Shown: piece after piece, positions 12,275-31,260 of the stretch
How the letters are laid out: each line of letters starts with the position of its first letter
Position numbering within the stretch: position 1 is the first letter of the stretch
Assembly (NCBI GenBank): GCA_026391945.1
Contig: JAPLDA010000011.1
Span: 1-64,000 of the forward strand
Direction: 5' to 3'
Source of the DNA: Bacteroidota bacterium
GTDB taxonomy: Bacteria > Bacteroidota > Bacteroidia > AKYH767-A > 2013-40CM-41-45
Length of the DNA stretch: 64,000 bases
Notes under the pieces: generated by a model
The model's input: only the letters and a program-made list of their open reading frames with translations
Told to the model about the DNA's origin: nothing
Database searches by the model: none
Program-made: the position numbers and the translations under genes

Positions 12275-12783
12275 CTTACTTTTTTCATCTGGCAGTAAAA
12301 AAAATCATCGTCTTTTCCGTCACCATCAAAGTCGAGCTTTGATCTGAGTTCAGCAGATCCGGCAGTCAGGTCAACCCGGTAATTCATCTGCTGGTCATTG
12401 GGAAAAAGCTGGTGAATCTTTAACTGGTTTTTCGCGGCCGACCATTTTCCGGCGGTGACTTTGATCACTTTGCCTTCAGCGTTTGTATAAGCAGAAATAT
12501 AGGTTTTATTCGGATTGAAGATCGTCTGGATCGGTTGCATTTTCATTCTCTCAACCCATTCATCGCTTCTTACTTCGAGGATCACCGACATATCACTGTT
12601 GTGAATGGTGTCGATGCCGACGACCAGGGCATCGGTTCTCCACATGCCTACCAGGGAACTTTGTAAATCGTTATCGGCCTGGATGGCATCCTGGCTGGCA
12701 GGAGGAACGGGTGCTTTGCTGCAACTCAAAAGGAAGAGCAACATGATCGTCAAAGGGAAGATGTATTTTCTGAGAGGTGTCAT
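12271..12783 (-). CDS. Hypothetical lipoprotein
   Basis: Lipobox LFLLSCSKA; soluble remainder. Confidence 0.65.
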   Translation of the reverse strand: MTPLRKYIFPLTIMLLFLLSCSKAPVPPASQDAIQADNDLQSSLVGMWRTDALVVGIDTIHNSDMSVILEVRSDEWVERMKMQPIQTIFNPNKTYISAYTNAEGKVIKVTAGKWSAAKNQLKIHQLFPNDQQMNYRVDLTAGSAELRSKLDFDGDGKDDDFFYCQMKKVS

Positions 12784-12854
12784 TGTAGATCAAACATACC
12801 TAACGGAACAACACAAAAAAAATTTTATCGGTTAAATGCAGGAAGATATGAGTA

Positions 12855-13286
12855 TCAGTTGTTACGCGCTCCTTCCAGCATCCAGGTAACAATGGTGTCG
12901 ATCCGGCCGGGCTTAAAAGCCGGTGCGTTCAGCGGCATCAACGGATAACCGTTTCCTTTGAGATGCCTGATGAGGTTGCTGTTGTTGGGATTGATCGTGT
13001 CGACATACGGAGCATGAATGCCATGAGGATTCGCATGCCATAAATTATTCCAGGAAACTTCGGCGCGCAAATCGAGGTATGGATGATACAGATTGTGGCA
13101 AATGATGCAGTTCTCATCGAAGAGCGGTTGTATGTCCTGCTGGTAATGGATTTTGAATGGATCATCCGGAGCCGGTTGAGAAGCCGGCTTCACAATCATG
13201 GGGCCTTTGTCTTTTTCACACGAAGAGATAATCAGCATAAAAAACAAAGCCACCATACCCGGGCGAATCAAAAGGTTCTTCAACAT
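12855..13286 (-). CDS. Monoheme c-type cytochrome-like lipoprotein
   Basis: Lipobox MLIISSCEK; heme motif CIICH. Confidence 0.75.
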   Translation of the reverse strand: MLKNLLIRPGMVALFFMLIISSCEKDKGPMIVKPASQPAPDDPFKIHYQQDIQPLFDENCIICHNLYHPYLDLRAEVSWNNLWHANPHGIHAPYVDTINPNNSNLIRHLKGNGYPLMPLNAPAFKPGRIDTIVTWMLEGARNN

Positions 13287-13289
13287 TTC

Positions 13290-14210
13290 TTATGATTTTG
13301 TTTTCGGTTTTTTCCAGTAGGTCCGTTTGATGTTGAAGCCGAGCAGGAATTTCTTCTTCGTGTAATCGGAAACCACGTTTGTATACAGTTGTTGTTCGAG
13401 GATTTCCTGCGATGAGCTTACGACGATCTGGAACACATGGCTCACCGTACCGAATTCCATGGCGATGGAGAGTGGATACAGTTTGTCTTCAGGTTGGTTG
13501 TTAAAACGGTATGCATATTCAAAGAGGAAAGAAGAATTCATCCCTGTTTTGATCGCTCCTCCGACCGGAAGAACAATCGTATGATTTTTAGTTCCGGCAC
13601 TTGCCAGGTTTTTATAAATCAATGCCGGTGAAACCTCGAATGAAAACCAGTCGCAGAATTTCCTCGAGATGATGACCTGCGAATTGTAGCTGAGCCGGTG
13701 ATTGAATTTGTAACGGAACGGAGTTACACCGTTATCAAAATAAGCATTCCTTGGTACAGGAAGGAAATCATCCGTATTCACGGCGGCGTCCAGGTACACG
13801 GAAACGGATACCGGGACGTTTGGATCAGTTGACTGGGTGAGTAATAACTGTTTCAGTTCTGCATCATACATTTTTCCGTTCTTCGTTCTTCCGGCTCCCA
13901 CCTGAAGGTTTTTCATCACCGAAAAATCAAACCCAAAACGGATGTTTGCAAAAAGATCCAGTCCGAGAAAATTCTTGATCGCATCTTTATTCAATTCCAT
14001 TTCACCAAAACGATGACGAATGCTGAATTCAAAACTGTGGGCGGGCTGGACAACTGTTGTCTGTGCGTTGATCAGCGTGGAACTCCGGAATGCATTGGTG
14101 ATGTTTTCATTATCATCCAGGCCTAAATCCTGTGCAGTTGATTTTTGAATACCCGGAAAAACAAGCAGGTAAACAGTGCACATGATCAGGTACCGGAAAA
14201 ATGATTTCAT
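13290..14210 (-). CDS. DUF5777-like beta-barrel protein
   Basis: Signal peptide MKSFFRYLIMCTVYLLVFPGIQKSTAQ; FEFSIRHRFGEM...alternating beta pattern. Confidence 0.7.
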   Translation of the reverse strand: MKSFFRYLIMCTVYLLVFPGIQKSTAQDLGLDDNENITNAFRSSTLINAQTTVVQPAHSFEFSIRHRFGEMELNKDAIKNFLGLDLFANIRFGFDFSVMKNLQVGAGRTKNGKMYDAELKQLLLTQSTDPNVPVSVSVYLDAAVNTDDFLPVPRNAYFDNGVTPFRYKFNHRLSYNSQVIISRKFCDWFSFEVSPALIYKNLASAGTKNHTIVLPVGGAIKTGMNSSFLFEYAYRFNNQPEDKLYPLSIAMEFGTVSHVFQIVVSSSQEILEQQLYTNVVSDYTKKKFLLGFNIKRTYWKKPKTKS

Positions 14211-14223
14211 GGTTACTTCTGAA

Positions 14224-14664
14224 TTAATAGGTGGAATTTTTCGGTAAGTTTTTTTTTCCAAGCTCACGGATGTAATTCACCAGCATCCATCGCTGCCTGG
14301 ATGAAAGCGCTTTTGCATACGGTTGCATATTTCCTTTCCCGATGCTGATTTTCCAGAAGATGGAACCATCACTTTGCTTTTGAATCTGCACGCTCGTATG
14401 GTCCGCTGGTTTGGGATTCAATGTCGCTGCTGCAGGTCCGTCTCCTTTGCCGCTTAATCCATGGCAGGGCCAGCAGGCATTTTCGTATATTTTTTTTGCC
14501 TCCTTTAACGTGAGTTCAGTTGCCGGCACACGATTCCTGAGCGTATCGGCATACGATGGAGCAATCCATATTTCATTCTGATGAACAGGTTGTGCGCTTA
14601 TGATCGTCCACCCTGCCTCGGATAGCAGAAGACAAAAAAAATATCTGAAGAATGATTTTGTCAT
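14224..14664 (-). CDS. c-type cytochrome (monoheme)
   Basis: YENACWPCHGLSGKGDGPAAATLNPKPADHT; CxxCH. Confidence 0.9.
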   Translation of the reverse strand: MTKSFFRYFFCLLLSEAGWTIISAQPVHQNEIWIAPSYADTLRNRVPATELTLKEAKKIYENACWPCHGLSGKGDGPAAATLNPKPADHTSVQIQKQSDGSIFWKISIGKGNMQPYAKALSSRQRWMLVNYIRELGKKNLPKNSTY

Positions 14665-14960
14665 CTTCCTCGTTGATGAAGGAACAAAGATGTCATCAAT
14701 AATAATATGACACCATTAAATATGTCAGTTAACCATACCTTATTGAATGACTGAAATCATACGCATGGTTGCGATTTCGTAGGAAGCAATGTAACGGATG
14801 CCTATGGAAGCCCTTTGATACCGTGCAATACGTGGTGTCCGGTTCCTTGATCACTCACCTGTGGGAACTCACTTTTTTTTGTTGAAAAAAATTGTGTGTG
14901 ATGATCCGTGCTTTTTCAAAACTGAACATTACCTTCGCCTGCGTATTTAACCAGGAAAAA

Positions 14961-15644
14961 ATGATTACATCTCTGAAAATGTTTTACACTTCGGTTGGCC
15001 GTAAACTGATCATGGCGCTTACCGGTTTATTTTTATGTGTGTTTCTCCTTGAACATCTCTATGGGAATTTACAATTGTATAAAATAGACGGTGGGAAAGC
15101 GTTTAATGAATACACCGAATTCATGACAGGCAATATGTTCATCCGTGCCGTTGAGTTTATTCTTTTCGCGGGCATCCTCGTTCATGCCCTGGATGGTCTC
15201 ATGCTGACCCTTGCAAACAGGAAAGCGCGCCCGGTACGTTATGCCGTAAGCCGCCAGTCGCAAAACAGCACCTGGTTTTCACGCAACATGGGACTCACCG
15301 GGAGCATTCTCTTTGTTTTCTTCGTGATCCACCTGCGCGAATTTTTCTTTGCTCACCGTTTCGGCGGAGCAACAGAATCGATGGCAGCCAGTGTGGCGAA
15401 TGCATTTACCACTGCCTGGTATGCTTCGCTTTACATTGTTGCCATGATCATACTCGGCTTTCACCTGAACCATGGTTTCCAGAGTGCTTTCCAGACACTG
15501 GGGTTGAGCAATCACAAATACATTAAAACATGGAAGTGTGCCGGGACAGTTTTCGCGCTGATCATGATGATTGGTTTCGCCTCAGTTCCGGTGATGTTAT
15601 ATTTCGACTTTATGGGAATGTCTTCTAACATACTTGGAAAATAA
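14961..15644 (+). CDS. sdhC: Succinate dehydrogenase/fumarate reductase cytochrome b subunit
   Basis: MFYTSVGRKLIMALTGLFLCVFLLEHLYGNL; precedes sdhA and sdhB. Confidence 0.92.
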   Translation: MITSLKMFYTSVGRKLIMALTGLFLCVFLLEHLYGNLQLYKIDGGKAFNEYTEFMTGNMFIRAVEFILFAGILVHALDGLMLTLANRKARPVRYAVSRQSQNSTWFSRNMGLTGSILFVFFVIHLREFFFAHRFGGATESMAASVANAFTTAWYASLYIVAMIILGFHLNHGFQSAFQTLGLSNHKYIKTWKCAGTVFALIMMIGFASVPVMLYFDFMGMSSNILGK

Positions 15645-15707
15645 ATTTCATGGATGGAGTGTACGTCGCAATTTCTGCGGCAGCACCCTTACAAGAATAA
15701 AAAAAAT

Positions 15708-17627
15708 ATGAGCAAACTAAATTCACGAATTCCGGATGGTCCTCTTGAAGCCAAGTGGACGAAATACAAATCAACAGTCAGGCTGGTAAACCCCGCCAAC
15801 AAAAGAAGAATCGAAGTGATCGTTGTCGGCTCCGGATTGGCAGGCGCTTCCGCGGCAGCATCACTGGCTGAACTTGGATATTCCGTCAAATGTTTTTGTT
15901 TCCAGGATTCACCGCGACGAGCCCATTCCATCGCTGCACAGGGAGGAATCAATGCCGCAAAAAATTATTCGAACGATGGCGACAGCGTGTTTCGCCTCTT
16001 TTATGATACAGTCAAAGGCGGTGATTACCGCGCACGTGAAGCCAATGTGTACCGCCTTGCTGAAGTGAGCAACGCCATCATCGACCAGTGCGTGGCGCAG
16101 GGAGTTCCGTTCGCCCGCGAGTACGGTGGCTTGCTGGATAACCGGTCATTCGGCGGTGTGCAGGTGTCCAGAACGTTTTATGCGCGCGGTCAAACAGGCC
16201 AGCAGTTGCTGCTCGGTGCGTATTCATCTTTGTCACGTCAGATTGCAAAAGGAAATTGCCAGATGTACAACCGCCATGAAATGCTGGAACTGGTAACCAT
16301 CGATGGCAAAGCGCGTGGAATCATCTCACGCGACCTGGTGAGCGGTGAAATACAACGACATTCGGCGCATGCTGTGATTCTCGCAACCGGCGGTTACGGC
16401 AACGTGTTTTTTCTTTCCACAAATGCCATGGGAAGCAATGCCACAGCAATTTGGAAAGCCTATAAGAAAGGAGCTTTTTTTGGTAACCCATGCTTCACGC
16501 AAATTCATCCGACCTGCATTCCGGTTTCCGGAGACTATCAATCGAAACTCACGTTGATGAGTGAGAGCCTGAGAAACGACGGTCGTGTGTGGGTTCCGAA
16601 AGCAGTAGGTGATAAACGCAAACCCGAAGATATTCCTGAAGAGGAAAGAGATTATTACCTCGAACGCAGGTATCCTTCTTTCGGCAACCTGGTTCCCCGG
16701 GATGTCGCATCCAGGGCGGCTAAACAGGTTTGTGATGAAGGAAAAGGTGTCGGCCCGTCAGGGCTTGCAGTTTTTCTTGAGTTCAAAGATTCCATCAAAC
16801 GCCTGGGATTGGATGTGATCAAAGAACGATACGGAAATCTTTTTGAGATGTATGAAAAAATCACCGGTGAAGATCCGTATCACACGCCAATGCGCATTTA
16901 CCCGGCCGTGCATTATACGATGGGTGGCTTGTGGGTTGATTACAACCTGATGACCACTGTTCCCGGTTTGTATGCTCTCGGTGAATGTAACTTCAGTGAC
17001 CACGGTGCCAACAGGCTTGGTGCTTCCGCACTGATGCAGGGACTTGCCGATGGTTACTTCGTGATTCCTTATACCATTGGCGACTTCCTCGCTGATGAAA
17101 TCCGGAATCCTGTTCCGCCAACGACGCATGCAGAATTTGATAAGGCGGAAAAGGAAGTGAAGGATAAAATCGACAGGCTCATGAACATCAAAGGAAAACA
17201 AACCGTTGATGACCTGCATAAAAAACTCGGCAAAGTGATGTGGGAATATTGCGGCATGGGCAGAAACGAACCGGGATTGCTGAAAGCACGTACACTGATA
17301 AAAGAAATTAAAGAGGAGTTCTGGAAAGACATCCGCATCCCGGGAAGTAAAGATGAATTCAATACCGAGCTGGAAAAAGCAGGTCGTGTGGCTGACTTCA
17401 TCGAACTCGGTGCCTTGATGGTGGAAGATGCTTTGCTTCGGAAAGAATCCTGCGGCGGACATTTCCGTGAAGAATCACAAACGGAAGAAGGCGAGGCCAA
17501 GCGCGACGATGTCAATTTCAGTTTCGTGGCGGCCTGGGAATATGCGGGCGACAACAGTGCTCCTGTTCTGAATAAGGAAGAACTGAAATTCGATGTCGTT
17601 CACCCGACACAAAGAAGTTATAAATAA
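15708..17627 (+). CDS. sdhA: Succinate dehydrogenase/fumarate reductase flavoprotein subunit
   Basis: [56 protein letters not shown]. Confidence 0.96.
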
Positions 17628-17707
17628 TGAATGTGAAGATGGGTTCATTGGCAATACGCTGATGAAATCTATGTCGATCGTCAAACTATAATCATCAAAT
17701 TAAAATC

Positions 17708-18469
17708 ATGAGCGAAACAATCAATGTGAAATTAAAAATCTGGCGGCAAAAAAATACCAGCGACAAAGGACGTTTTGAACTATATGACATGCCCGGTGTA
17801 AGCACACACATGTCGTTTTTGGAAATGATGGATGTGCTGAACGACCGCCTCGTAAGGGAAGGAAAAGATCCGGTTGCCTTTGATCATGATTGCCGCGAAG
17901 GAATTTGCGGGATGTGCAGCATGTACATCAACGGCCGCGCTCACGGCCTGCTGAAAGGCACCACCACCTGCCAGCTTCACATGCGTCATTTTGAAAATGG
18001 GGAAACGATTACCATTGAACCATGGAGGGCCGAAGCTTTCCCGGTGATTAAAGACCTCGCCGTCGACCGTACCGCTTTTGAAAAAATCATGCAGGCCGGT
18101 GGTTATGTTTCCATGAATACGGGAAACGCCGTCGACGGAAATGCTTTGCCGATTGAAAAAGTAAAAGCCGATGAAGCCATGGATGCCGCTTCCTGCATCG
18201 GTTGCGGAGCATGTGTGGCTTCCTGCAAAAATGCTTCCGCCATGTTGTTCATGTCGGCGAAAGTTTCCCAGCTCGCCTTGCTGCCGCAGGGAGAACCTGA
18301 ACGGTATGTGCGTGTGTTGAAAATGATGGAGGCTCATGACGAAGCAGGATTCGGAAGCTGCACCAACACCGGTGCCTGTGAATCGGAATGTCCGAAAGAA
18401 ATTTCAATCGCCCACATTGCACGTTTCAACCGCGATTACCTGACGGCAAGTGTGGTGAGTGAAAAATAA
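17708..18469 (+). CDS. sdhB: Succinate dehydrogenase/fumarate reductase iron-sulfur subunit
   Basis: [43 protein letters not shown]. Confidence 0.96.
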
Positions 18470-18633
18470 CAGCACTTCATCGGGAATTTTATCGTTTGAT
18501 TTTTCAGGTAACAGGAATTCTGTTTCCACATGATCTGTTTCCATTGCTTCCTGTGTTGTATCTCCATCAGAAGTTTTTTGGGGAACTCAAAGAAAAAATC
18601 CCAAACAGTGCCCCTGCCACTTCCTTACTCTTT

Positions 18634-18664
18634 TTGTGTATCAATTCAGAATCATGTAAGTTTG
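18634..18664 (+). promoter_or_regulatory. Bacteroidota sigma-A-type promoter for rnc: TTG-N20-TAAGTTTG
   Basis: ttg 18634-18636 and taagtttg 18657-18664, 34 nt upstream of the rnc ATG. Confidence 0.55.
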
Positions 18665-18697
18665 TGACTGTCGAAGAAAAACCAGGCAACACTACTT

Positions 18698-19414
18698 TTG
18701 TTTTCCATATTCAGAACATACTTTTCAAAGGATAAAAAACTTTTTCACGCGCTGAAAAATCTTCTCGGTTTTTATCCGAACAACCTTGCCGTTTATAAAC
18801 TGGCATTCAGTCACCGGAGCAGTGCAGAAGAACATCCGAGCGGACTCAAGATGAGCAACGAACGCCTTGAATACCTCGGCGATGCTATTCTCGGAGCCGT
18901 GGTAGCAGAAATGTTGTTCAGGAAATTTCCATTCAAAGAAGAAGGGTTTCTTACGGAGATGCGCTCGAAAATTGTAAACCGTGAAAACCTCAACAAGCTT
19001 GCATTGAAACTGGGAATCGATCATTACATGAACGGATCCATTGACCCGGCGGCGAAAAGCCGTTCGGTGTATGGCGATGCATTTGAAGCGCTGATTGGCG
19101 CCGTTTACATCGACAAAGGTTACAGCGTCACCCGTTCGCTGATCCTTCACCGGTTCATCAAACACCACATTGATGTGGAAGAACTCGAATTGCTGGAACA
19201 TAACTTCAAAAGCAAGCTCATCAACTGGGGACAACGCGAACGTAAGAATGTAGAATTCGAATTGCTGGAAGAGGTGGAAAACGGTGGAAAGCGTTTGCTG
19301 CGTGTCAGGGTTTTGGTGAACGGTGAAGAACTGGCAAGAGGTGAAGACTATTCGAAAAAAAGAGCCGAGCAAATTGCCGCTCAGAAAGTCTGCGAGTCAA
19401 TAGGTATCAGTTAA
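18698..19414 (+). CDS. rnc: Ribonuclease III
   Basis: NERLEYLGDAILGAVVAEMLF signature; C-terminal dsRBD. Confidence 0.95.
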   Translation: MFSIFRTYFSKDKKLFHALKNLLGFYPNNLAVYKLAFSHRSSAEEHPSGLKMSNERLEYLGDAILGAVVAEMLFRKFPFKEEGFLTEMRSKIVNRENLNKLALKLGIDHYMNGSIDPAAKSRSVYGDAFEALIGAVYIDKGYSVTRSLILHRFIKHHIDVEELELLEHNFKSKLINWGQRERKNVEFELLEEVENGGKRLLRVRVLVNGEELARGEDYSKKRAEQIAAQKVCESIGIS

Positions 19415-19477
19415 GCATCGGTTTCTGATCGAGAAGCAAGTAACAAAAAAGGGAACTTACTTTTTTATTATTTTTTT

Positions 19478-19553
19478 CACCACGGAGATTCTGAGTACAC
19501 AGAGGTTCACGGAGACATCTCTGTGGCTTTTTCGTGTCCTCCGTGCCGTGGTG
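19478..19553. repeat. Imperfect palindromic intergenic element (caccacgg...ccgtggtg)
   Basis: caccacgg/ccgtggtg outer arms, nested cacagag/ctctgtg; acggag-type repeats within the arms. Confidence 0.75.
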
Positions 19554-19652
19554 AACTAATTTGTGAGCAAATGGAATAAGAGGAAAGAAGCCTGGTATTT
19601 TTTGTTATGAAAAATCACGTTTCTCATCTTCATTCCTTAATACTTTTTTCTC

Positions 19653-19660
19653 TACTTTTG
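19653..19660 (+). promoter_or_regulatory. -7 element TACTTTTG upstream of acyl-CoA dehydrogenase
   Basis: TAnnTTTG match; no convincing TTG at -33. Confidence 0.35.
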
Positions 19661-19751
19661 TCCGCCTGAAGAGCAGTTATCAGAACGGATTTAGCATTTA
19701 AAATTTGATTTCTGAAATCATCAGAATATCTAAAAAATAAAATTATTCCTT

Positions 19752-20930
19752 ATGGCTCAAGACAGATTTCAATCGCACGATTATTATTTGATGGATGAAT
19801 TGCTCACGGAAGAACATAAACTCATTCGTTCCAGTGTGCGCGACTGGGTGAAAAAAGAAGTGTCGCCGGTTGTGGAAGAAGCCTGTCAGAAAGCGACATT
19901 CCCGAAACAATGGATCAAAGGATTGGCGGAGATCGGCGGCTTCGGTCCGTACATACCGGAAGAATACGGCGGCGGCGGGCTCGACCAGGTTTCTTATGGC
20001 CTCATCATGCAGGAGCTGGAGCGCGGCGATTCCGGTTTGCGTTCCACCGCTTCGGTTCAGAGTTCACTCGTGATGTATCCTATTTACACGTATGGAAGTG
20101 AAGAGCAGCGAAAAAAATATCTTCCCAAACTGGCCAGCGGCGAATGGATGGGATGTTTCGGGCTCACCGAACCGGATCATGGAAGCAATCCCGGCGGCAT
20201 GCTCAGCAACATCAAAGACAAAGGCGATCATTTTTTACTGAACGGTTCGAAGATGTGGATCAGCAATGCACCGTTTGCTGATGTAGCCGTGGTATGGGCG
20301 AAGGATGAACAGGGAATCATCCGCGGGATGGTTCTGGAACGCGGCATGAAAGGGTTCACCACTCCGGAAACCCACGGCAAATGGTCGCTGCGCGCCAGCG
20401 CTACCGGCGAACTGGTTTTTGATAACGTGAAAGTCCCGAAAGAAAATATTTTCCCGAATGTAAAAGGACTGAAAGGTCCTTTGGGCTGCCTGAATTCGGC
20501 GCGGTACGGAATTGCCTGGGGCGCCATCGGCGCTGCACTGGATTGCTATGATTCGGCTCTGCGCTATGCGAAGGAGCGCGTTCAGTTCGGGAAACCGATA
20601 GCGTCGTTCCAGCTTACTCAGAAAAAACTCGCCGAGATGATTACGGAAATCACCAAGGCACAACTGCTCACCTGGCGTTTGGGAGTTTTGAAAAATGAAA
20701 ACCGTGCAACACCGGCACAGATCAGCATGGCCAAGCGAAACAATGTGAACATGGCGTTGCAGGTTGCCCGCGAAGCGCGACAGATACACGGCGGCATGGG
20801 CATCACGGGCGAGTACCCGATCATGCGCCACATGATGAACCTCGAAAGCGTAATCACCTACGAAGGCACGCACGACATTCATTTGCTCATAACAGGAATG
20901 GATGTAACGGGGATCAATGCGTTTGAATAA
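19752..20930 (+). CDS. Acyl-CoA dehydrogenase (glutaryl-CoA dehydrogenase-like)
   Basis: GCFGLTEPDHGSNPGGM; QIHGGMGITGEYPIMRHMMNLESVITYEGTHDIH. Confidence 0.92.
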   Translation: MAQDRFQSHDYYLMDELLTEEHKLIRSSVRDWVKKEVSPVVEEACQKATFPKQWIKGLAEIGGFGPYIPEEYGGGGLDQVSYGLIMQELERGDSGLRSTASVQSSLVMYPIYTYGSEEQRKKYLPKLASGEWMGCFGLTEPDHGSNPGGMLSNIKDKGDHFLLNGSKMWISNAPFADVAVVWAKDEQGIIRGMVLERGMKGFTTPETHGKWSLRASATGELVFDNVKVPKENIFPNVKGLKGPLGCLNSARYGIAWGAIGAALDCYDSALRYAKERVQFGKPIASFQLTQKKLAEMITEITKAQLLTWRLGVLKNENRATPAQISMAKRNNVNMALQVAREARQIHGGMGITGEYPIMRHMMNLESVITYEGTHDIHLLITGMDVTGINAFE

Positions 20931-21062
20931 ACCGAAGGCGGAGGCTGGAAATTGGAAGACGGAAGTTGGGCGGTTGACATAATCACTAAGCATTGGTTCA
21001 TGATTCTTACATCCTGTTATTTTTTTTTGTATTTTTCTGCTCCTAATCTAAAACCTATCACC

Positions 21063-21869
21063 ATGAAATTAAAATCTACCATTCTTACCCGGAGCATGTT
21101 CCTGTTATTCAGCATTAGCCTGGTAACGGTTTCGAATGCCCGCCCGCTTGTGTATTGCGTTCCTACGTTTTTGAACGGATGTACGCAATGGAATAATCAC
21201 ACCATCACCCTGAACACCATCAACTGGACAATCGGTGCAACAGCCTGCACCGTTTCAGATTATACCAGTCAGTCCACCACGCTCACGGCCGGAACATCTT
21301 ACCCGATGACCGTGATCAACGGCGCCTGGTGCGGTTGTTCTGTCTGGATCGATTTTAACCAGAACCAGGTGTTTGATACGATAGAAAATCTTTATCATTC
21401 GTACCAGGGCAACTCGCCAACCTTCACGTATAATTTCAACATTGCCATTCCTGCTACTGCACCCAACGGAACTTACCGGATGCGTGTAATCGGGCCATGG
21501 GGATCTGACGGATATACAGTCGGTAGTGGTAATGGATGGGGCGGCTGTGGTTCTTACCAGTATGGAAACTTTGAGGACTTTACCGTTACCATTGTTGGTT
21601 CCGTTGGTATTCCAAACATTGCCGGCAACAACTTACCTGTGATGTCTGCTAGTCCGAATCCTGCAACTACGGAAATCACCGTCACGATGAATGACATAAA
21701 AGGAAAGGAAGCGAAACTGCAGCTCATGGATATTACCGGGAAACTCATACGCACCATAGATGTTCGAAGTGAAAAGGAAGTGCTCGATATCGCCGATCTT
21801 TCAAAAGGAATTTACATTCTCCATTATGCCGACGGTGATCGCGGCCAGGACATCAGGCTGGTGAAATAA
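21063..21869 (+). CDS. GEVED-like domain secreted protein with T9SS type A sorting domain
   Basis: WIDFNQNQVFDTIENLY...GTYRMRVIG...YGNFEDFTVTIV; C-terminal SASPNPATTEITVTM...GIYILHYADGDRGQDIRLVK. Confidence 0.85.
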   Translation: MKLKSTILTRSMFLLFSISLVTVSNARPLVYCVPTFLNGCTQWNNHTITLNTINWTIGATACTVSDYTSQSTTLTAGTSYPMTVINGAWCGCSVWIDFNQNQVFDTIENLYHSYQGNSPTFTYNFNIAIPATAPNGTYRMRVIGPWGSDGYTVGSGNGWGGCGSYQYGNFEDFTVTIVGSVGIPNIAGNNLPVMSASPNPATTEITVTMNDIKGKEAKLQLMDITGKLIRTIDVRSEKEVLDIADLSKGIYILHYADGDRGQDIRLVK

Positions 21870-21925
21870 AATACCAACGCCAGCAAAACGCTTTCCTGTT
21901 TTCGAAAGCAAATTTCTACTCATAA

Positions 21926-21957
21926 AAAGGACTCCTCTGAAACGGAGTCTTTTTTTG
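21926..21957 (+). terminator. Rho-independent terminator
   Basis: gactcc-tctgaaac-ggagtc followed by ttttttt. Confidence 0.85.
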
Positions 21958-22176
21958 TGGGTTCATTCCAGCCTTTTTTATTTCTCTATGTTCCATGGTA
22001 AAATTTTTTAAACATAGCATCGAGGACATGGAGGTTTGCCAGGAAACAGTGTGTTTACTCTGTCAATAGATTTGAGTCACCCAGGTTTAGGATAACACGT
22101 GAGCATGGAAGGTTGCAGAGGACTTTTTATACCAGGATTTCGGAAGCGAAGAAAAAAATACCGGGAAGAATTCCTG

Positions 22177-22386
22177 TCATGCCTTTTTCAAAAAACAGGT
22201 TTTGAGTACCAGCGTTACCTTATCTACGCGGCCTTCTATTTCGTCAGGGTTGGATGTGAGGCGGATGTTTTTTACCACCTGTCCTCTTTTCAGATCCGTA
22301 GGACTGCCTTTTACTTTTAAACTTTTAATGAGGGTTACGTTATCGCCTTCTGCAAGCAGGTTGCCATTGCTGTCTCTTACGTCCAT
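22177..22386 (-). CDS. PhnA-domain (YjdM-like) protein, short form
   Basis: MDVRDSNGNLLAEGDNVTLIKSLKVKGSPTDLKRGQVVKNIRLTSNPDEIEG. Confidence 0.85.
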   Translation of the reverse strand: MDVRDSNGNLLAEGDNVTLIKSLKVKGSPTDLKRGQVVKNIRLTSNPDEIEGRVDKVTLVLKTCFLKKA

Positions 22387-22461
22387 GATTTTTATTGAAT
22401 AAATAAATTAGAGCACGCAATATCCGACTTTATTTAAAAGTATAAACAAATTATTCCAACA

Positions 22462-23049
22462 CTATTTCTCAAAGTGAAGATTGGAGGGTTCCTTGTTCGG
22501 CATCAGGTTTTCTTTTCCTCTGCCCGTTGTTGGAACAGTGGTCTCCACCACATCGAAGTTCAGGTCGCTGAACCAGATCTGACCTGTGCCGACGAGCAAT
22601 GCTCCGTATGCCATGTTGGAAGCGTTGAGCGGAACATCGAGGACAATTTCATATTTTTTCCAGTCGGTGGTTCCTTTCACAGGCCTGTCGAGCATGTTGT
22701 CGAACGACAATGGTATTTTTGAATGGGCTTCATCAATTCTCAGCCAGAGCCCGGCTTTGTCGTCCACATTTTTTGATTTTACGTAACCGCTCATGCGGAT
22801 TCTTCTCCCGATGTATTTGTCGGGCAGGCATTCCTGCATGAGCGTGCCGAAGCCATGAATTTTTTTGGTGTTGGATTGAATGGTGGCGGCGTTGCTGCCG
22901 TTTTGCCCGGCGCCTTTATCAATACCCATGTCGTAACTTTTCGGATCGCTTCCGGCTTTGAACCAACCTTTCGGTAAATCGAAAGAAAAAAATGTTGCGG
23001 CGATGGCGATGAACAATAAGCTTGTCAGGATTCTTTTTGTGGAGGTCAT
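22462..23049 (-). CDS. Hypothetical secreted protein
   Basis: Signal peptide; IRMSGYVKSKNVDDKAGLWLRIDE. Confidence 0.65.
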   Translation of the reverse strand: MTSTKRILTSLLFIAIAATFFSFDLPKGWFKAGSDPKSYDMGIDKGAGQNGSNAATIQSNTKKIHGFGTLMQECLPDKYIGRRIRMSGYVKSKNVDDKAGLWLRIDEAHSKIPLSFDNMLDRPVKGTTDWKKYEIVLDVPLNASNMAYGALLVGTGQIWFSDLNFDVVETTVPTTGRGKENLMPNKEPSNLHFEK

Positions 23050-23225
23050 GGGCGGGGAGGTGTTTGTTTTTCATGTCTCGAAACATGAAAGATTTCTTAA
23101 TGCACCAAGTTACAAGATTTAAAATTATCCTTTTTTAAACAACGAAACTCTCAGAGCTAACCTACAAAATTTTTTTCTCATCCCCCATGAAGCGATGAAA
23201 ACAAAATAACAGCTATCGTTTGGTT

Positions 23226-25043
23226 TTATTTTACAGGTACAACTTCAGGCAAGGCGAGATTCTGCAGCCAGCTTTCGGCATTGCTGAGATCCTCTTTCAT
23301 CACAGCAAGGTATCGTTCGCTTTCCTGGTGAATGGAAGTGAGGAGTCGTTTATAATAGTCAACGCCTTCAAGCAAATTGGTTTTGAATGTCTGCAGGTAC
23401 TTCGCCTGGCGCGCATTGATTTCACCGATGCTTTTTGAAATTTCATTTTTCAGGTAGTCCGTGTAAAGATTCAGTTCGTTGACGAACATGTTCGGGCGAC
23501 GTAACGAATTGAGCAGGTTGCAGCGGCCGTAGATGTGATCTGCCATCTGTTGCAACGTGAAGATTCCTGAAAAGTACGCCAGGTTGGGCCCCGGGCAAAT
23601 GGTAACGGCTTTGAGATGATGATGAAGAGGCATGTGGTTTTTCAGCAATATCGATGCATCCAGCCCTTCACACAAACAATCTTTTTCGACAATGGTTTTT
23701 AATTCCGCTTCAAAGATTTGTTCCGGAAGATTCTTCTCTTCGAGCTGTTTGATTTTCAGTTGTTGGTATTCACGCGAAGCGGTGCAGATCGGCAGCGCAG
23801 TAAATTCGGTATTGGTGGAGAGAAACTTTTTATAGCACGGACTGCCCGGCCTTCCTTTGTCGATGCGCAATTGCATTTGTTTCTGAGCAGAACTTTTCCT
23901 GAAATTATGAAACGGTATTCCCAACGGTGAGTTGTTGCTCAGGTAATAATCTTCTTTTTCTGCCGTTGCCAGTTGGTGCAATGTTTCATCATCCACGTTG
24001 GTCACTTCAGGCACCAGTAAAAAAGGACTTCCCCAGCCGGTGCCGTCCACATCGTAATAGCCGAGCAGGAAATTATTTTCATTGGAAGTGCCGATTCCGC
24101 CCTGGACGGTAATTTTCATTCCGGGCTGCTGAGGAAAAGCATCGTATTTTTTTTCAGTCAAGGCACGGCTGCACATTTCAAAAAGTTCAGCGGCAATCTC
24201 CTGTTTCTTTACTTTGAATTCTTCGAGGATGGGGCCGAGCAGGATTCCATCGGTCGCAAAAGCATGTCCGCCGCAGTTCAACCCGGATTCGATCCTGAAC
24301 TCTGAAACCCACAACCCTTTTTTTGCCATGAGTTTTCCCTGCGTGAGTGCAGAACGGTAGTCACTTACTTTCAGTATGATTTTCTTTTTCAGGTTTCCGT
24401 TTGCATCCGGGAAAAAGTCGCGGAAGTTTTCGATGTAAGCATACAAACGCGGGTTATAGCCGGCAGAAAATACGACGGAAGAATCCAGTTCGCTGTTGGC
24501 AAAACCCCTGAACGCCGACAGTGCGTCGGAATATTCCAAAGGCAACGGCTCGCCGCTCTTCGTATAAGCCGGCTTGTCGATTTTCGACATGATGTTCACG
24601 TCGATGGAACCTGCAATGATTTTAGAGCGGAGTTCCTGTTGCAATGATTCCTTCTTTTTCCCTTCTTCTGAATGTTGCATCTCCCGGTAAGTTTTCTTTA
24701 CAGGAGAATTGTCGGGAAGAAGTTCAAAATATTTCGTAAGATCGTTTCCTTCTTCAAAAGGAAGTGTGCGGAGTAGGTTCACCTGTTGCTTCACCAAACG
24801 GTTTAGGAGATCGAGGTAAGCGGTGATGCGTTTGGCGCGGAAATCAAAAACATCCGTGGTGATGGCATCATACTGCTCTCCTGATTGCAGGCAATGATAT
24901 TTCCGCATCTCCTCAACCAATTCATCTTCGATGATGGAAACGACGGATGAAATTCCGAACCTGGCAATTTTTAAAGGAGTATCAATCGTATAGCACAATC
25001 CCATCACGGGAATGTGAAACGTATGTTGTTCGGCTCGGCTCAT
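23226..25043 (-). CDS. Conserved hypothetical protein, 605 aa
   Basis: Long ORF; glycine-rich motifs VQGGIGTSNENNFLLGYYDVDGTGWGSPF. Confidence 0.75.
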   Translation of the reverse strand: MSRAEQHTFHIPVMGLCYTIDTPLKIARFGISSVVSIIEDELVEEMRKYHCLQSGEQYDAITTDVFDFRAKRITAYLDLLNRLVKQQVNLLRTLPFEEGNDLTKYFELLPDNSPVKKTYREMQHSEEGKKKESLQQELRSKIIAGSIDVNIMSKIDKPAYTKSGEPLPLEYSDALSAFRGFANSELDSSVVFSAGYNPRLYAYIENFRDFFPDANGNLKKKIILKVSDYRSALTQGKLMAKKGLWVSEFRIESGLNCGGHAFATDGILLGPILEEFKVKKQEIAAELFEMCSRALTEKKYDAFPQQPGMKITVQGGIGTSNENNFLLGYYDVDGTGWGSPFLLVPEVTNVDDETLHQLATAEKEDYYLSNNSPLGIPFHNFRKSSAQKQMQLRIDKGRPGSPCYKKFLSTNTEFTALPICTASREYQQLKIKQLEEKNLPEQIFEAELKTIVEKDCLCEGLDASILLKNHMPLHHHLKAVTICPGPNLAYFSGIFTLQQMADHIYGRCNLLNSLRRPNMFVNELNLYTDYLKNEISKSIGEINARQAKYLQTFKTNLLEGVDYYKRLLTSIHQESERYLAVMKEDLSNAESWLQNLALPEVVPVK

Positions 25044-25549
25044 GTACGAATATTCATTGACAACATGAGAGTGTTCCGTTCGGCTGAATCAATCCCACGC
25101 ATCTGACTTTAAAGAAGGCATTTTTTCTTTGGATGGGTCATGACTTTGATCATGTTTTAGCATAGGCGCTGTTTCAATTGCCTTTCCATATTTGGCCGTG
25201 TACAAAACGTGTTTGTAAAATTGGAAATGATTGATCATGTACCATCCGGAACTTCAATGAACAATGGAATAAAATTTCCGGTGTTTCCGATTCCATCAAT
25301 AGACAATCGATATTTTTAAAATCGTTTTTATAAACTGGCTATTCCTCTTTTCCTTTGTGAATAGTATTGGTTGGATAATAAACGAAACATGAGTGTGTAA
25401 GTGCTCCCTTGTTATTCGAAAGGGACTCGCAGTAAAATGCCCGATGCCGAATCATACTGCTAAAGATACCGGTGTATAAGTAATAAGGCAAGGGTTACAC
25501 TTTCAAGTCTGATGATGAGCCTCCATTTTTTAAGCTCTCTTTTTAAATG

Positions 25550-25566
25550 AATATTCAATGAATATT
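25550..25566. promoter_or_regulatory. Perfect inverted repeat aatattca-a-tgaatatt upstream of the cytochrome module
   Basis: 8-bp arms, 1-nt spacer, about 125 nt upstream of 25692. Confidence 0.35.
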
Positions 25567-25691
25567 TAATTGAATAGACAAAAAATACGTTTTAATACTT
25601 TAATTTAGACAAAAGTTATTTTCGTTTCCGGATGAATTCGTTTTTGCAGTGAGTTGTTTCGTTAATTACAAACCAGTAATTTCTTTAAGCC

Positions 25692-26135
25692 ATGAGTAGA
25701 ATAAATCAATCCATATTGATTATTTTTTTGATGAGTTATTCTTTGCTTACTTTTTCCCAGAACAAACAATTGGAAGAACACCGGCGCAAATGGGATACCC
25801 CGGCATGGACAGATACGATCAGGAATCCATATGTTAACATAACTGCAGCTACTGACAGTGGGAAAATATTGTATGGACAAATCTGCAGCGTATGTCATGG
25901 TATGTCCGGTAAAGGCGATGGCGTGGCTGCGGCAGGATTAAGTGTCAGGCCGGCCAACCATACTTCAGCGAATGTACAATTGCAAACTGACGGTTCGTTG
26001 TTTCATGAATTATCAAACGGTCATGCGCCGATGCCAGCTTATAAAGATGCACTTACTCCAAAGCAACGTTGGTCACTGATCAATTACATACGGGTACTTG
26101 GAAAGAAAAACGCTCCAGTCAAATCTTCTCATTAA
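25692..26135 (+). CDS. c-type cytochrome (monoheme), paralog of 14224-14664
   Basis: YGQICSVCHGMSGKGDGVAAAGLSVRPANHT; CxxCH. Confidence 0.9.
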   Translation: MSRINQSILIIFLMSYSLLTFSQNKQLEEHRRKWDTPAWTDTIRNPYVNITAATDSGKILYGQICSVCHGMSGKGDGVAAAGLSVRPANHTSANVQLQTDGSLFHELSNGHAPMPAYKDALTPKQRWSLINYIRVLGKKNAPVKSSH

Positions 26136-26165
26136 TCATTAACATTTATGCAAAAACCAAACGCT

Positions 26166-27290
26166 ATGAAAAAATTAATCCTATTGCTATTTGTCGGTGC
26201 ATGGTGCGTTTCGCCCACGTATGCACAATCTGACGCAAAAGAAAGTCCGAGAGATTTCGGGTCTAATAAACTTCTTATCACAGGTCATGCAACCGTAACG
26301 GCTGTGATGGATTCGGGACAAAACAATATCAGTGAAGCCAATTTCTCAGCCATCTTCCTGTATCATTTGTCTGAAAAATTATTTTTAGAATCTGAACTTG
26401 AAATCGCAACAGGCGAAGGCAGCGCTGAACTCGGATTAGAGCATGCGAACCTGGTTTGGATGTTCAATAAAAACATTGCATTCCATGCCGGGCGTTTTGT
26501 ACCTCATTTCGGTTTATACAGGGGCCGGCTTGGCGAAGGTTTTATCAATCGCTTCCCTACCGACCCGGCAGGATTTGGTGATGGCGGCATTGGAACCATG
26601 GAAGCTGTTGGTTTTGGTTTCCAGGGTGGTTTTGCTTTAGGTGTTTCAAAAATGAATTACGATCTGTGGGTGTCTGATGGACCGCATCTTCTTACGGATA
26701 TAGCAAATGCCGGCCAATTTGACTACGAGGCATACAAGGATAATAACAAGAACAAAGCGGTTGGCGGGCGCATCGGTTTTCTCCCATTTACCAACTCCTG
26801 TCTTGAATTGGGTTTGTCTTTTGAAAATACAAAAAAGACGGGAGACCTGTATTCACCATTTGAGAATGTAGGCGTGAGAATGATGGCAGTGGATTTTAAT
26901 TTTTATCACCAGGTGAGTCCATTGATGAGCACGATTCGTCTGACAGGTGAATATAAAAAACAAGACGTTGATAAATTTGATTATCCTGTTCCTTATGATT
27001 CAACAGGAGCTATTTTCACATTTGATAATTCGTCTAACGCATATTATGTATCGGCTTCAATTCGCCCAAGTAGCTCTGAGAATGAGATCTTACGCAACTT
27101 CGAAATCGCGTATCGCTACTCAAAATTTACTACGCCCAAAGAGGCTCCATGGGGAACAGCCGAACCGGTTGTTCGCAATGTTGTAGCACTTAATTACTGG
27201 CTGAAATGGAATTGTGTGTTAAAGGTTGCATTTCAGAAGGAGACAAACGTTGCCGACGCAGTGTATGTTCAAATGTTCTACGGTTTCTAA
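26166..27290 (+). CDS. Outer-membrane beta-barrel (porin-like) protein
   Basis: Signal peptide; FFLESELEIATGEGSAELGLEHANLVWMF-type strands; terminal aromatic VYVQMFYGF. Confidence 0.75.
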   Translation: MKKLILLLFVGAWCVSPTYAQSDAKESPRDFGSNKLLITGHATVTAVMDSGQNNISEANFSAIFLYHLSEKLFLESELEIATGEGSAELGLEHANLVWMFNKNIAFHAGRFVPHFGLYRGRLGEGFINRFPTDPAGFGDGGIGTMEAVGFGFQGGFALGVSKMNYDLWVSDGPHLLTDIANAGQFDYEAYKDNNKNKAVGGRIGFLPFTNSCLELGLSFENTKKTGDLYSPFENVGVRMMAVDFNFYHQVSPLMSTIRLTGEYKKQDVDKFDYPVPYDSTGAIFTFDNSSNAYYVSASIRPSSSENEILRNFEIAYRYSKFTTPKEAPWGTAEPVVRNVVALNYWLKWNCVLKVAFQKETNVADAVYVQMFYGF

Positions 27291-27313
27291 TCATTTTAAA
27301 AAAGAGAAAAACA

Positions 27314-27574
27314 ATGAAAAAAATAATCATACTTTTTATATTCGTCATGTCAGGAAGTGCTATGTTATTCAGCAGCTGCGCTCCTACTAAAGAGATTGCT
27401 GACAAGAGCGGTGCCCAGTTATGGGGTGAGAATTGTAACCGTTGCCACAATGCTCCGTCTATGGATCAATATTCAAAAGAACAGTGGCCCATCATTGGCT
27501 CGCACATGAAACTGAAAGCAGGCCTCACCGATGATGAGGTAAACAAAATTGTTTCGTTTCTGAAAGGAAGTTAA
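27314..27574 (+). CDS. c-type cytochrome-like lipoprotein
   Basis: MKKIIILFIFVMSGSAMLFSSCAP lipobox; CNRCHN heme motif. Start trimmed from 27206. Confidence 0.8.
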   Translation: MKKIIILFIFVMSGSAMLFSSCAPTKEIADKSGAQLWGENCNRCHNAPSMDQYSKEQWPIIGSHMKLKAGLTDDEVNKIVSFLKGS

Positions 27575-27594
27575 TTCGGGCTTTGGTTTGTGTC

Positions 27595-27622
27595 AGAGGC
27601 GATCGGGTTGATCGCCTCTTTT
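27595..27622 (+). terminator. Rho-independent terminator
   Basis: agaggcgatc-gggtt-gatcgcctct followed by tttt. Confidence 0.85.
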
Positions 27623-27698
27623 GTTTGGCAGGAAATTCCTGGTGCGGATCTTTGCCCAGTGGTGAAAAATTTCATTTTCATTTGGATACATTTAGCGG

Positions 27699-28928
27699 AT
27701 GGTAAGAAAAAAAACCTGGATTGACCTGTCCATTTTTAATTTATGTGTAGTTGCTTTTTTAGGAATGGTACTGAGAAGCAAGATGCTTTTCTCATTGCCT
27801 TTTATTGATTTCAATGATCTATCAAACGCCCACTCACACTTTGCTTTTGGCGGATGGGTGACATTGACGCTGATGTTTCTAATGGTGTACCGGTTGCTGC
27901 CGCATCCCCTGAACAACAAATCAATATATCAATGGATCCTCGGTGGAATCGTGCTGTGTTCCTGGTGTATGCTGTTATCATTTTATTTTCTGGGGAATGG
28001 GTATGTGTCAGCTTTTTTTTCTTTCTTTTTTATTTTCATCACGTATGTTTTCGGATGGATGATCATTAAAGACAGCCGAAAAGCCGGATTGAGTAAGACA
28101 GTCTATCTCCTCAGTGTTTCATCTGTCGTTTGCCTTCTGTTGTCTTCTGTTGGGCAGTTAACGATCACGTATCTTTTTGCTGTTAAATCGATCAATGCAA
28201 TTTTTTATCGCGATGCACTGTTTACGTATCTTCATTTCCAATACAATGGTTTTTTTACGCTTGCTGTTTTTGCATTGCTGTTTCAGCAATTGGAAAATAA
28301 AATGACTGCAAAGTCAGCGCAACTCAGTTACAATTTTTCTGTTTTGATTTGTGTATCCATTCTTCCCTCCCTGTTTCTTTCTTACCTCTGGCAAAGTCCC
28401 GATACGTTTTTACGGATTGTTGCCATGTCAGGAAGCATCACTGTTTTACTGAGTCTTGTCTGCTTTATTATTTTCGGATTATCCATGGTAAAAATATACA
28501 GATCAGCCAGTCCGGTCTTACGTTTTTTAGGATTACTGTCCATGGGAGCCTTCATGCTGAAGATGCTTTTGCAAAGCCTGACCATTTTTACTTCTATTGG
28601 CAATGCCGTATTCGGTGCCAGGCCGATGATTATTGGCTTCCTTCACCTGGTGTTTTTAGGATTTGTTTCTCTTTTCCTGTTGGCCTGCTTTACCCGGGAG
28701 GGTTTTCTGAATGGGAAAAACAAATTTACAAGAGTATCACTGGCCGTATTTGCTGTTGGGGTATTGTTAAACGAAACTATTTTAATGTCTGAAGGTTTGG
28801 GTTCCATGCTGGTAAAAAGCAGCTACCTGTTTCCATGGATGCTTTGGATCGTAAGCCTTTGGATGTTTATTGGCGCTTTACTCACAGGTATAGCACGCAT
28901 AAAGGAAAACAATAGAACGGCCGGGTAA
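27699..28928 (+). CDS. Polytopic membrane protein, possibly distantly related to heme-copper oxidase subunit I / NnrS
   Basis: Multiple TM helices; conserved-looking His in SNAHSHFAFGGWVTLTLMF, YLHFQYNGFF and GFLHLVFLGF. Confidence 0.6.
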   Translation: MVRKKTWIDLSIFNLCVVAFLGMVLRSKMLFSLPFIDFNDLSNAHSHFAFGGWVTLTLMFLMVYRLLPHPLNNKSIYQWILGGIVLCSWCMLLSFYFLGNGYVSAFFSFFFIFITYVFGWMIIKDSRKAGLSKTVYLLSVSSVVCLLLSSVGQLTITYLFAVKSINAIFYRDALFTYLHFQYNGFFTLAVFALLFQQLENKMTAKSAQLSYNFSVLICVSILPSLFLSYLWQSPDTFLRIVAMSGSITVLLSLVCFIIFGLSMVKIYRSASPVLRFLGLLSMGAFMLKMLLQSLTIFTSIGNAVFGARPMIIGFLHLVFLGFVSLFLLACFTREGFLNGKNKFTRVSLAVFAVGVLLNETILMSEGLGSMLVKSSYLFPWMLWIVSLWMFIGALLTGIARIKENNRTAG

Positions 28929-29002
28929 AATTTTCTGACCCGGAAGAAAAATAAAAATTGATTTGAGTTACCGGGATTCTGTGAACAGAATTTCAAAGCA
29001 GC

Positions 29003-29488
29003 CTAATTTTTTCCGTCATTCTGGCGCATGAACTCCAGGAGATTGCGGGCGTCTTCATCACTGACACCCTGGCTTGGCATTCGTACCAAACAGGTGATAA
29101 ACATTTTTTGCGCGATGAGATCGCTGTCGAGCATGACGTTTGTGTTCGTGATAAAGTTCATGATCCATTCTGGTGTTCGCCTGTCAGTAACTCCTTTCCA
29201 TCCTGGTCCAACTAATTTTTCGGCTGTAAGTTTGTGACAGGCAAAACATTTTCCATCGTAAATCGGTTTGCCTTTTGTGATCAGTGCGGCATCTAAAGGA
29301 TGAGTGAGTTGAACATTTTTGAATTTACCAATTCCATTGTCTGCTTCTTTTCCCGACTCAGCCTGCTTCATCAGGTTCGTGGTATCATTCGACTTGCCTG
29401 CATTTCCGGGTTGTTTGTTGTCACTACAACGAATGGCTGTTATTGCAATCATGGAAAATAGAATCATGTACAGTGAATGGCGTTTCAT
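29003..29488 (-). CDS. c-type cytochrome lipoprotein
   Basis: Lipobox ITAIRCSDN; KCFACHKLTAEKLVGPGWKGVTDRRTPEWIMNFI; candidate Met ligand in VRMPSQGVS. Confidence 0.85.
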   Translation of the reverse strand: MKRHSLYMILFSMIAITAIRCSDNKQPGNAGKSNDTTNLMKQAESGKEADNGIGKFKNVQLTHPLDAALITKGKPIYDGKCFACHKLTAEKLVGPGWKGVTDRRTPEWIMNFITNTNVMLDSDLIAQKMFITCLVRMPSQGVSDEDARNLLEFMRQNDGKN

Positions 29489-29614
29489 GTGTCAGATTAT
29501 TAATGGTTATTCGCAAAACTAACGATTGTTTATCTATTAAGATGATTAAATAATGAGGAAAATCCAACGCTGTCAATCCGGAATCTTCTTTACCTTCGGT
29601 AAAAATTAAAAACC

Positions 29615-30517
29615 ATGACACTCTTCATCATCGGACTTTTACTGTTCCTGTTTGCCAAAAACTTAACGGAATTATTTCCGCAGATCCCAACCGTTCATCG
29701 TATGGTGCGGTTGGCGGGACTGGCATTGGCTGTGGTTGGAATCGCCAATGCATCCGTCAAACAAATTGATGCCGGTCATGTGGGAGTGCAATCGTTGTTC
29801 GGAAAAGTCCAGGAACATGTGCTCACCAGTGGGCTGAATGTGATCAATCCTTTTGTGGATGTTCACACGTTTGACATCAAGACACAGAATTATACCATGT
29901 CGGCCATTGCAACCGAAGGCGATAAAACCGGCGACGATGCCATTCGCGTTCTTTCTGCCGACGGACTGGAAGTGATCATTGACCTCACGATTCTGTACAG
30001 TGTGATTCCTTCGGAAGCGCCCAATATTTACCGTGAAATCGGTGTGGACTATAAGAATGTAATCGTGCGGCCGATTACCCGTACGAAAATCCGTGACAAT
30101 GCTGTGTACTATGATGCCGTGGCGCTTTATTCAAAGCAGCGCGATGAGTTCCAGGCGAAAATATTCAAGAGCATTGAAAATGATTTCAAAGCCCGCGGAC
30201 TGGTACTGGAGCAATTGCTTGTGAGGAACATCACGTTGCCGCCTTCGGTGAAAGCCGCCATCGAATCGAAAATCAATGCGGAGCAGGATGCACAGAAAAT
30301 GCAGTTCGTTCTGCAAAAAGAAAAACAGGAAGCTGAACGCAAACGAGTGGAGGCGCAGGGAATAGCCGATTACCAACGCATCATCAACAGTGAGATCACC
30401 GACAAACTTCTGCAATACGAAAGCATCAAAGCGCAAAAGGAAATTGCACTCTCGCCGAATTCAAAAGTGATCATCATGGGAAAAGGAGCGGGTTCTGTGC
30501 TGATCAGCGACAAATAA
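29615..30517 (+). CDS. SPFH/prohibitin family protein
   Basis: QIDAGHVGVQSLFGKVQEHVLTSGLNVINPFVDVHTFDIKTQ. Confidence 0.92.
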   Translation: MTLFIIGLLLFLFAKNLTELFPQIPTVHRMVRLAGLALAVVGIANASVKQIDAGHVGVQSLFGKVQEHVLTSGLNVINPFVDVHTFDIKTQNYTMSAIATEGDKTGDDAIRVLSADGLEVIIDLTILYSVIPSEAPNIYREIGVDYKNVIVRPITRTKIRDNAVYYDAVALYSKQRDEFQAKIFKSIENDFKARGLVLEQLLVRNITLPPSVKAAIESKINAEQDAQKMQFVLQKEKQEAERKRVEAQGIADYQRIINSEITDKLLQYESIKAQKEIALSPNSKVIIMGKGAGSVLISDK

Positions 30518-30614: not shown

Positions 30615-30920
30615 CTAATCAAGTGAAAGACGAAGCCTGCCACCAAGTCCGTCAGCAATAATTCTCATTAACGTTGAAAGACGAATATCAGTGGCGTTGT
30701 TTTCAATTCTGGAAATGTAAGATTTCGTTGTTCCGCATTTTTCTGCAAGTTGCTCTTGTGTTAAATTCTTTTTCTCTCTCATTTCAGCAATCAAAACACC
30801 GAGTTTGAATGCTTCGAATTCACGCTCCCATTTTTCCCGTTTCTTAACTCCACGTTTTCCAAATTGCCGGTCAAGGTGATCTTCAAAAGAAGCAAGATTT
30901 TTATTCACTTTCTTTTTCAT
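30615..30920 (-). CDS. XRE-family antitoxin (HigA-like)
   Basis: KKNLTQEQLAEKCGTTKSYISRIENNATDIRLSTLMRI; overlaps toxin gene. Confidence 0.85.
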   Translation of the reverse strand: MKKKVNKNLASFEDHLDRQFGKRGVKKREKWEREFEAFKLGVLIAEMREKKNLTQEQLAEKCGTTKSYISRIENNATDIRLSTLMRIIADGLGGRLRLSLD

Positions 30921-31260
30921 CGAAATATTGTTTTTTAAGTTTCATCGCTAATTCAATTTCATCCATGGGAGTCTTATCTGATTTTTTTTGAAAGCCATTG
31001 ATTAAAATGATCAATTGACCTTCATCGAAGAAACAGAAAACCCGGAAGATATTTTTCCCAACCTCAACGCGAATTTCATAAAGTCCGTCGGCGCCTTCAA
31101 TGTGTTTGAAATATTTTACCGGGATCCTGTCAAGCGATGCAACCAGGGCCAGTGTCCAGTTGAACTTGGCTTTTACTTCCCGGGATTGCTTATGAAAGAA
31201 ATCCAGGTAGTAATGTTTGTAATAATATATCTTGCGGATGAACTTACTACTTACTGACAA
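30901..31260 (-). CDS. RelE/HigB-like toxin (Gp49-like)
   Basis: VKYFKHIEGADGLYEIRVEVGKNIFRVFCFFDEGQLIILINGFQKKSDKTPMDEIELA. Confidence 0.88.
   Translation of the reverse strand: MSVSSKFIRKIYYYKHYYLDFFHKQSREVKAKFNWTLALVASLDRIPVKYFKHIEGADGLYEIRVEVGKNIFRVFCFFDEGQLIILINGFQKKSDKTPMDEIELAMKLKKQYFDEKESE

Follow-up and report, generated by a model that had tools for sequence, protein, structure and literature searches.

Gene content of the two modules

The window, the whole 64,000-nucleotide stretch of DNA analysed here, encodes two groups of three genes, each comprising a monoheme cytochrome, a beta-barrel and a CxxCH lipoprotein: module 1 on the reverse strand (12855-14664) and module 2 on the forward strand (25692-27574). 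All six open reading frames listed in an earlier sequence-only reading of this DNA are present and tightly spaced, with intergenic gaps of 13 nt (cytochrome to barrel) and 3 nt (barrel to lipoprotein) in module 1 and of 30 nt and 23 nt, respectively, in module 2.

The first gene of module 2, cytE (25692-26135, + strand), encodes a secreted monoheme c-type cytochrome (PF13442, E 2.6e-10), whose CxxCH (residues 65-69) and Met114 are kept in 28/28 aligned trio cytochromes and whose best PDB profile matches are 6h5l_B and 7o9u_A, followed by the alternative complex III monoheme subunit 6f0k_E. The middle gene (26166-27290, + strand) encodes a predicted outer-membrane porin with 16 strands in the AF2 model (pLDDT 84.9, pTM 0.81), for which Foldseek returned general porins of the OmpF type (TM about 0.6, E 6.5e-12). 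Pfam gave no match for this porin itself, which does not reach the cut-off of Porin_O_P (PF07396), a family weakly matched by 7 of 31 porin-family members (best E 2.4e-6); a PDB sequence search with it gave no matches, and NCBIfam gave none for this barrel or for three unfused relatives.

The last gene of the trio (27314-27574, + strand) encodes a small monoheme lipoprotein cytochrome of ~90 aa, with a lipobox Cys22, the heme motif C41xxC44H45 and an invariant H64-M65. The lipid Cys, CxxCH and His-Met pair are kept in all 29 aligned sequences (29/29), and weak similarity in the PDB was found to the diheme cytochrome c 3u99 (E 0.0063) and the lipoprotein cytochrome c 8qjg (E 0.012). The two heme proteins of the trio carry one CxxCH each, both in the open reading frames of the window and in the alignments. 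Surface lipoproteins of Bacteroidota have known export motifs following the lipid Cys, and inspection of the alignment by eye revealed no recognised surface-export motif after the lipid Cys of the trio lipoproteins. Directly 3' of the trio lies an intrinsic-terminator-like hairpin (27595-27619, + strand), formed by an 11-pair stem and a T-rich tail, which was also recovered by a stricter terminator scan (4 of 28 loci compared with 3 of 560 shuffles); an Rfam scan of window positions 12000-30000 found no RNA family.

Module 1 begins with a paralog of cytE (14224-14664, - strand). The paralogy of the two window cytochromes, proposed in the sequence-only reading, is borne out by 54/114 identical residues (47%, E 5e-38), but both belong to a cytE family with nine members in this genome, and the module 1 copy sits outside the NrfCD-linked cytochromes in a poorly resolved tree. 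The module 1 barrel (13290-14210, - strand), with about 12 predicted strands, belongs to DUF5777 (PF19089, E 6.5e-65; 219.2 bits, cut-off 23.1), and its AF2 model (pLDDT 87.5) gave weak Foldseek matches to small porins. The lipoprotein that follows (12855-13286, - strand) is of the DUF5777-associated type, with CxxCH or CxxxxCH relatives beside most DUF5777 genes. The earlier impression that neither the barrels nor the lipoproteins of the two modules are related agrees with these assignments: only one barrel, the DUF5777 protein, matches Pfam in its own right, the best BLASTP E between the two barrels is 0.61, and the two lipoproteins have the CxxCH region alone in common. As both families differ, module 1 was ruled out as a diverged copy of module 2. 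The proposal of a repeated cytochrome-barrel-lipoprotein unit therefore stands in part, as the unit recurs in contigs C111 and C75 and in other genomes, but the two window modules do not belong to the same unit.

DUF5777 was found in 46 of 118 sampled genomes, this one included. Among 20 DUF5777 loci surveyed, most have a CxxCH or CxxxxCH lipoprotein, and a YceI-type gene occurs at several (assigned by Pfam in one case and by eye in the others). Module 1 resembles these loci in its barrel and heme lipoprotein and differs from them in its cytochrome: they usually lie beside YceI and heme lipoprotein genes, whereas cytE adjoins DUF5777 in only two of the 20, both with FeS-NrfD genes. Because cytE is so rare at DUF5777 loci, module 1 is, judged from gene families and neighbourhoods, a separate unit of DUF5777 barrel and heme lipoprotein, to which a cytE paralog is an uncommon addition. 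This genome has three copies of DUF5777, each beside a heme-type lipoprotein, with cytE adjoining the window copy only. Another of these barrels, again with a heme-type lipoprotein (L017:7143-8537), lies on the same contig, C1, ~3 kb past the window end.

Conservation, copies and fusions of the module 2 trio

The module 2 porin is present in 11 of the 296 genomes of a phylum sample and in 10 of the 61 genomes of a sample of relatives, this genome being included in both counts, and nine further porin loci, one of them weak (L033), came from a scan of named genomes. One carrier of the trio in this last set is the cultured Ginsengibacter hankyongi BR5-29 (L029). With L033 (Acidobacteria) and the weak matches L079 and L080 left out, and L027 and L074 counted once as the same locus, there are 28 non-redundant porin loci outside this genome, with cytE immediately upstream in 25 and a small lipoprotein immediately downstream in 27. 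The full trio, in the same order and on one strand, is found at 24 of the 28 loci, in many Bacteroidota families. The trio is incomplete at four loci: L027, where a tandem second copy lacks the lipoprotein, L028, which has no adjacent cytE, L073, which is truncated by a contig end, and L054, which has a fusion. A neighbourhood check across Bacteroidota, as suggested by the sequence-only reading, thus finds the trio conserved outside its own genome, and, because the same trio recurs across this phylum, the gene order of module 2 is far beyond chance. A full-text literature search, which covered few subscription journals, turned up no paper describing either this trio or DUF5777.

Two further arrangements were observed in this survey. 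The L027/L074 genome has two porin-cytE copies ~7 kb apart, with a lipoprotein beside only one, and at L080:6096-8943 a distant porin relative is encoded 3' of genes for a di-heme oxidoreductase and a Rieske protein.

Three copies of the module 2 porin are encoded in this genome, with complete trios in the window, C111 and C75. The window and C111 copies are 65% identical in the porin and 70% in the lipoprotein, compared with 34% in cytE. A stretch of 141 bp is exactly the same at the ends of C35 and C111, and joining the contigs there keeps one open frame, giving the order FeS protein, NrfD, membrane protein, cytE, small ORF, FeS, NrfD, membrane protein, cytE, porin and lipoprotein, in which the trio closes a run containing FeS and NrfD quinone-oxidoreductase genes. 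The C111 cytE groups with NrfD-linked cytochromes in the tree, and the most distant cytE relative is the monoheme subunit of an alternative-complex-III-type operon on C46. Pairwise distances are correlated more closely between porin and lipoprotein (r 0.69) than between porin and cytE (0.32). From these correlations, the window and C111 identities and the tree position of the C111 cytE, it looks as if porin and lipoprotein form the constant part of the system, with cytE as an exchangeable adaptor to different electron-transfer partners. The likeness to alternative complex III lies in the ActE-type family of cytE and in the FeS-NrfD genes that precede it in C111, whereas no quinone-oxidoreductase subunits adjoin the window trio, where ActA-F are absent. 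A row of genes at L021:5673-11948 (C62) encodes a pair of Crp/Fnr-type regulators, a pair of cytE cytochromes, one tetraheme cytochrome, one FeS protein and one NrfD protein.

Natural fusions join parts of the trio in other genomes. In a search of plasmid proteins, a 758-codon gene of a Legionella anisa plasmid (NZ_CP082853.1) was found to encode three cytE-type heme domains followed by a porin domain (cytochrome profile E 1.1e-29, porin profile E 7.7e-50), a stoichiometry unlike that of the separate-gene trio, and the gene that follows it encodes a lipoprotein-type domain (E 1.6e-27) with a further heme domain. At L054, too, the gene next to the porin combines the lipoprotein-type domain with a second heme domain, and in two Alteromonadaceae plasmids the porin is followed by a diheme protein containing this domain. 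The Legionella fusion supports a physical pairing of cytochrome and porin and is the strongest evidence here, at the level of gene structure, that the separate proteins may work together. The possibility raised in the sequence-only reading that the barrel lies in the outer membrane and pairs with the cytochrome agrees with both this fusion and the 16-strand porin model.

Gene neighbourhoods and alternative roles

At four loci, one of them that of the window, the trio is accompanied by two accessory genes. The first (27699-28928, + strand) encodes a polytopic membrane protein in which four His residues (45, 47, 179, 316) are invariant and which has no Pfam or PDB match. The second (29003-29488, - strand) encodes a lipoprotein monoheme cytochrome, a paralog of the cytochrome of the C60 nos operon of this genome (phmmer E 5.7e-36), in which nosZ is also encoded. 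This paralogy involves L134:10987-11517 as well as the window gene. Beyond the trio the neighbours are variable, and most loci are without a nearby metal or quinone-oxidoreductase gene. At 30615-31260 (- strand) of the window, a small helix-turn-helix gene overlaps an upstream 119-codon ORF in an arrangement that appears toxin-antitoxin-like by eye.

The barrel could be an ordinary diffusion porin, with the cytochromes serving a periplasmic redox enzyme that acts on a small substrate and never touching the porin. The closeness of its fold to general diffusion porins would be expected in that case, and the nos-type cytochrome and polytopic membrane protein found beside the trio in four loci, in a genome with nosZ, are consistent with such an enzyme. 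However, Legionella has cytochrome and porin domains in one protein and no enzyme gene recurs beside the trio at most loci, which makes this explanation unlikely. Other neighbours suggest a dedicated role in copper or silver detoxification, for example Cu(I) oxidation at the outer membrane: a multicopper oxidase and CopB adjoin the trio at L051, a multicopper oxidase homolog adjoins the Legionella fusion, CusB-type proteins with a heavy-metal domain are encoded near the trio at L071, and RND efflux genes lie near it at L078 and at L054, the latter also encoding a cupredoxin. The copper or metal gene neighbourhood of these several trio copies is a lead, as far as gene content can indicate function, but copper genes are absent around most loci, the window included, and the plasmid collection is skewed, as plasmid records over-represent metal-resistance regions. 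With one RND match among 20 DUF5777 loci, the control sample is too small to decide the matter. Detoxification as the dedicated function is accordingly regarded as improbable.

Conduits such as OmbB-OmaB-OmcB have a periplasmic cytochrome, a barrel and a lipoprotein cytochrome encoded together (PMC6148476), an arrangement that the trio shares with these systems and with MtrCAB. This gene order, and the link of the C111 trio to NrfD-type quinone oxidoreductase genes, would fit a genuine wire that spans the membrane and serves extracellular electron transfer, in which the lipoprotein would be exposed on the cell surface and cytE would be periplasmic. The cytochromes of the known conduits are multiheme proteins. 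The barrel of MtrCAB has 26 strands (PMC8406198), whereas the modelled trio porin has 16, with one heme per protein, a chain that by analogy with Cyc2 would be too short to cross the membrane (PMC8406198), and no recognised surface-export motif follows the lipid Cys. An Mtr-style wire, which the sequence-only reading had itself considered unlikely, is therefore disfavoured for module 2 by heme number and strand count, and there is little probability that the trio forms any wire of this kind.

Proposed mechanism of the trio

Cyc2 has a predicted 16-strand porin and one heme that is thought to lie at the periplasmic mouth (PMC8406198). The combination of a one-heme cytochrome with a 16-strand porin is shared with the trio, as judged from its AF2 model, whereas the trio consists of separate ORFs with two distinct one-heme proteins, fused only in the Legionella relative. 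Cyc2 thus offers the closest working analogy for the mechanism of the trio, a likeness of architecture, and the trio may be regarded as a further form of porin-cytochrome, built from separate genes.

The main reading, held at a probability of roughly one half, is that the products of module 2 form a compact porin-cytochrome device of the outer membrane, in which a porin and one-heme cytochromes on its periplasmic side connect a small redox substrate with the respiratory chain. The 16-stranded porin would be located in the outer membrane, with the lipidated one-heme cytochrome and the soluble cytE docked at its periplasmic mouth. Both hemes are placed in the periplasm, with the substrate arriving through the pore, because no surface-export motif was seen. 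A small redox substrate, for which a metal ion (copper or iron, for example) is the most plausible candidate, would enter or bind the pore and exchange electrons, in either direction, with the heme of the lipoprotein. CytE would then join this heme to the respiratory chain, possibly through NrfD-type quinone oxidoreductases at some loci and through other cytochromes or oxidases elsewhere.

Outer-membrane electron transfer has been studied mainly in Cyc2 and in proteobacterial systems with multiheme cytochromes. More tentatively, the trio could represent an undescribed and widespread minimal redox system of Bacteroidota and some Gammaproteobacteria, composed of a 16-strand porin, two one-heme cytochromes and, as one of these, an exchangeable adaptor that would connect it to different respiratory complexes, and passing electrons to or from metal ions or other extracellular partners. 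If this is true, the mechanism of a single-heme porin would become testable with separable parts, and the porin cassette with two monoheme cytochromes would serve as a marker of metal or extracellular redox chemistry in Bacteroidota.
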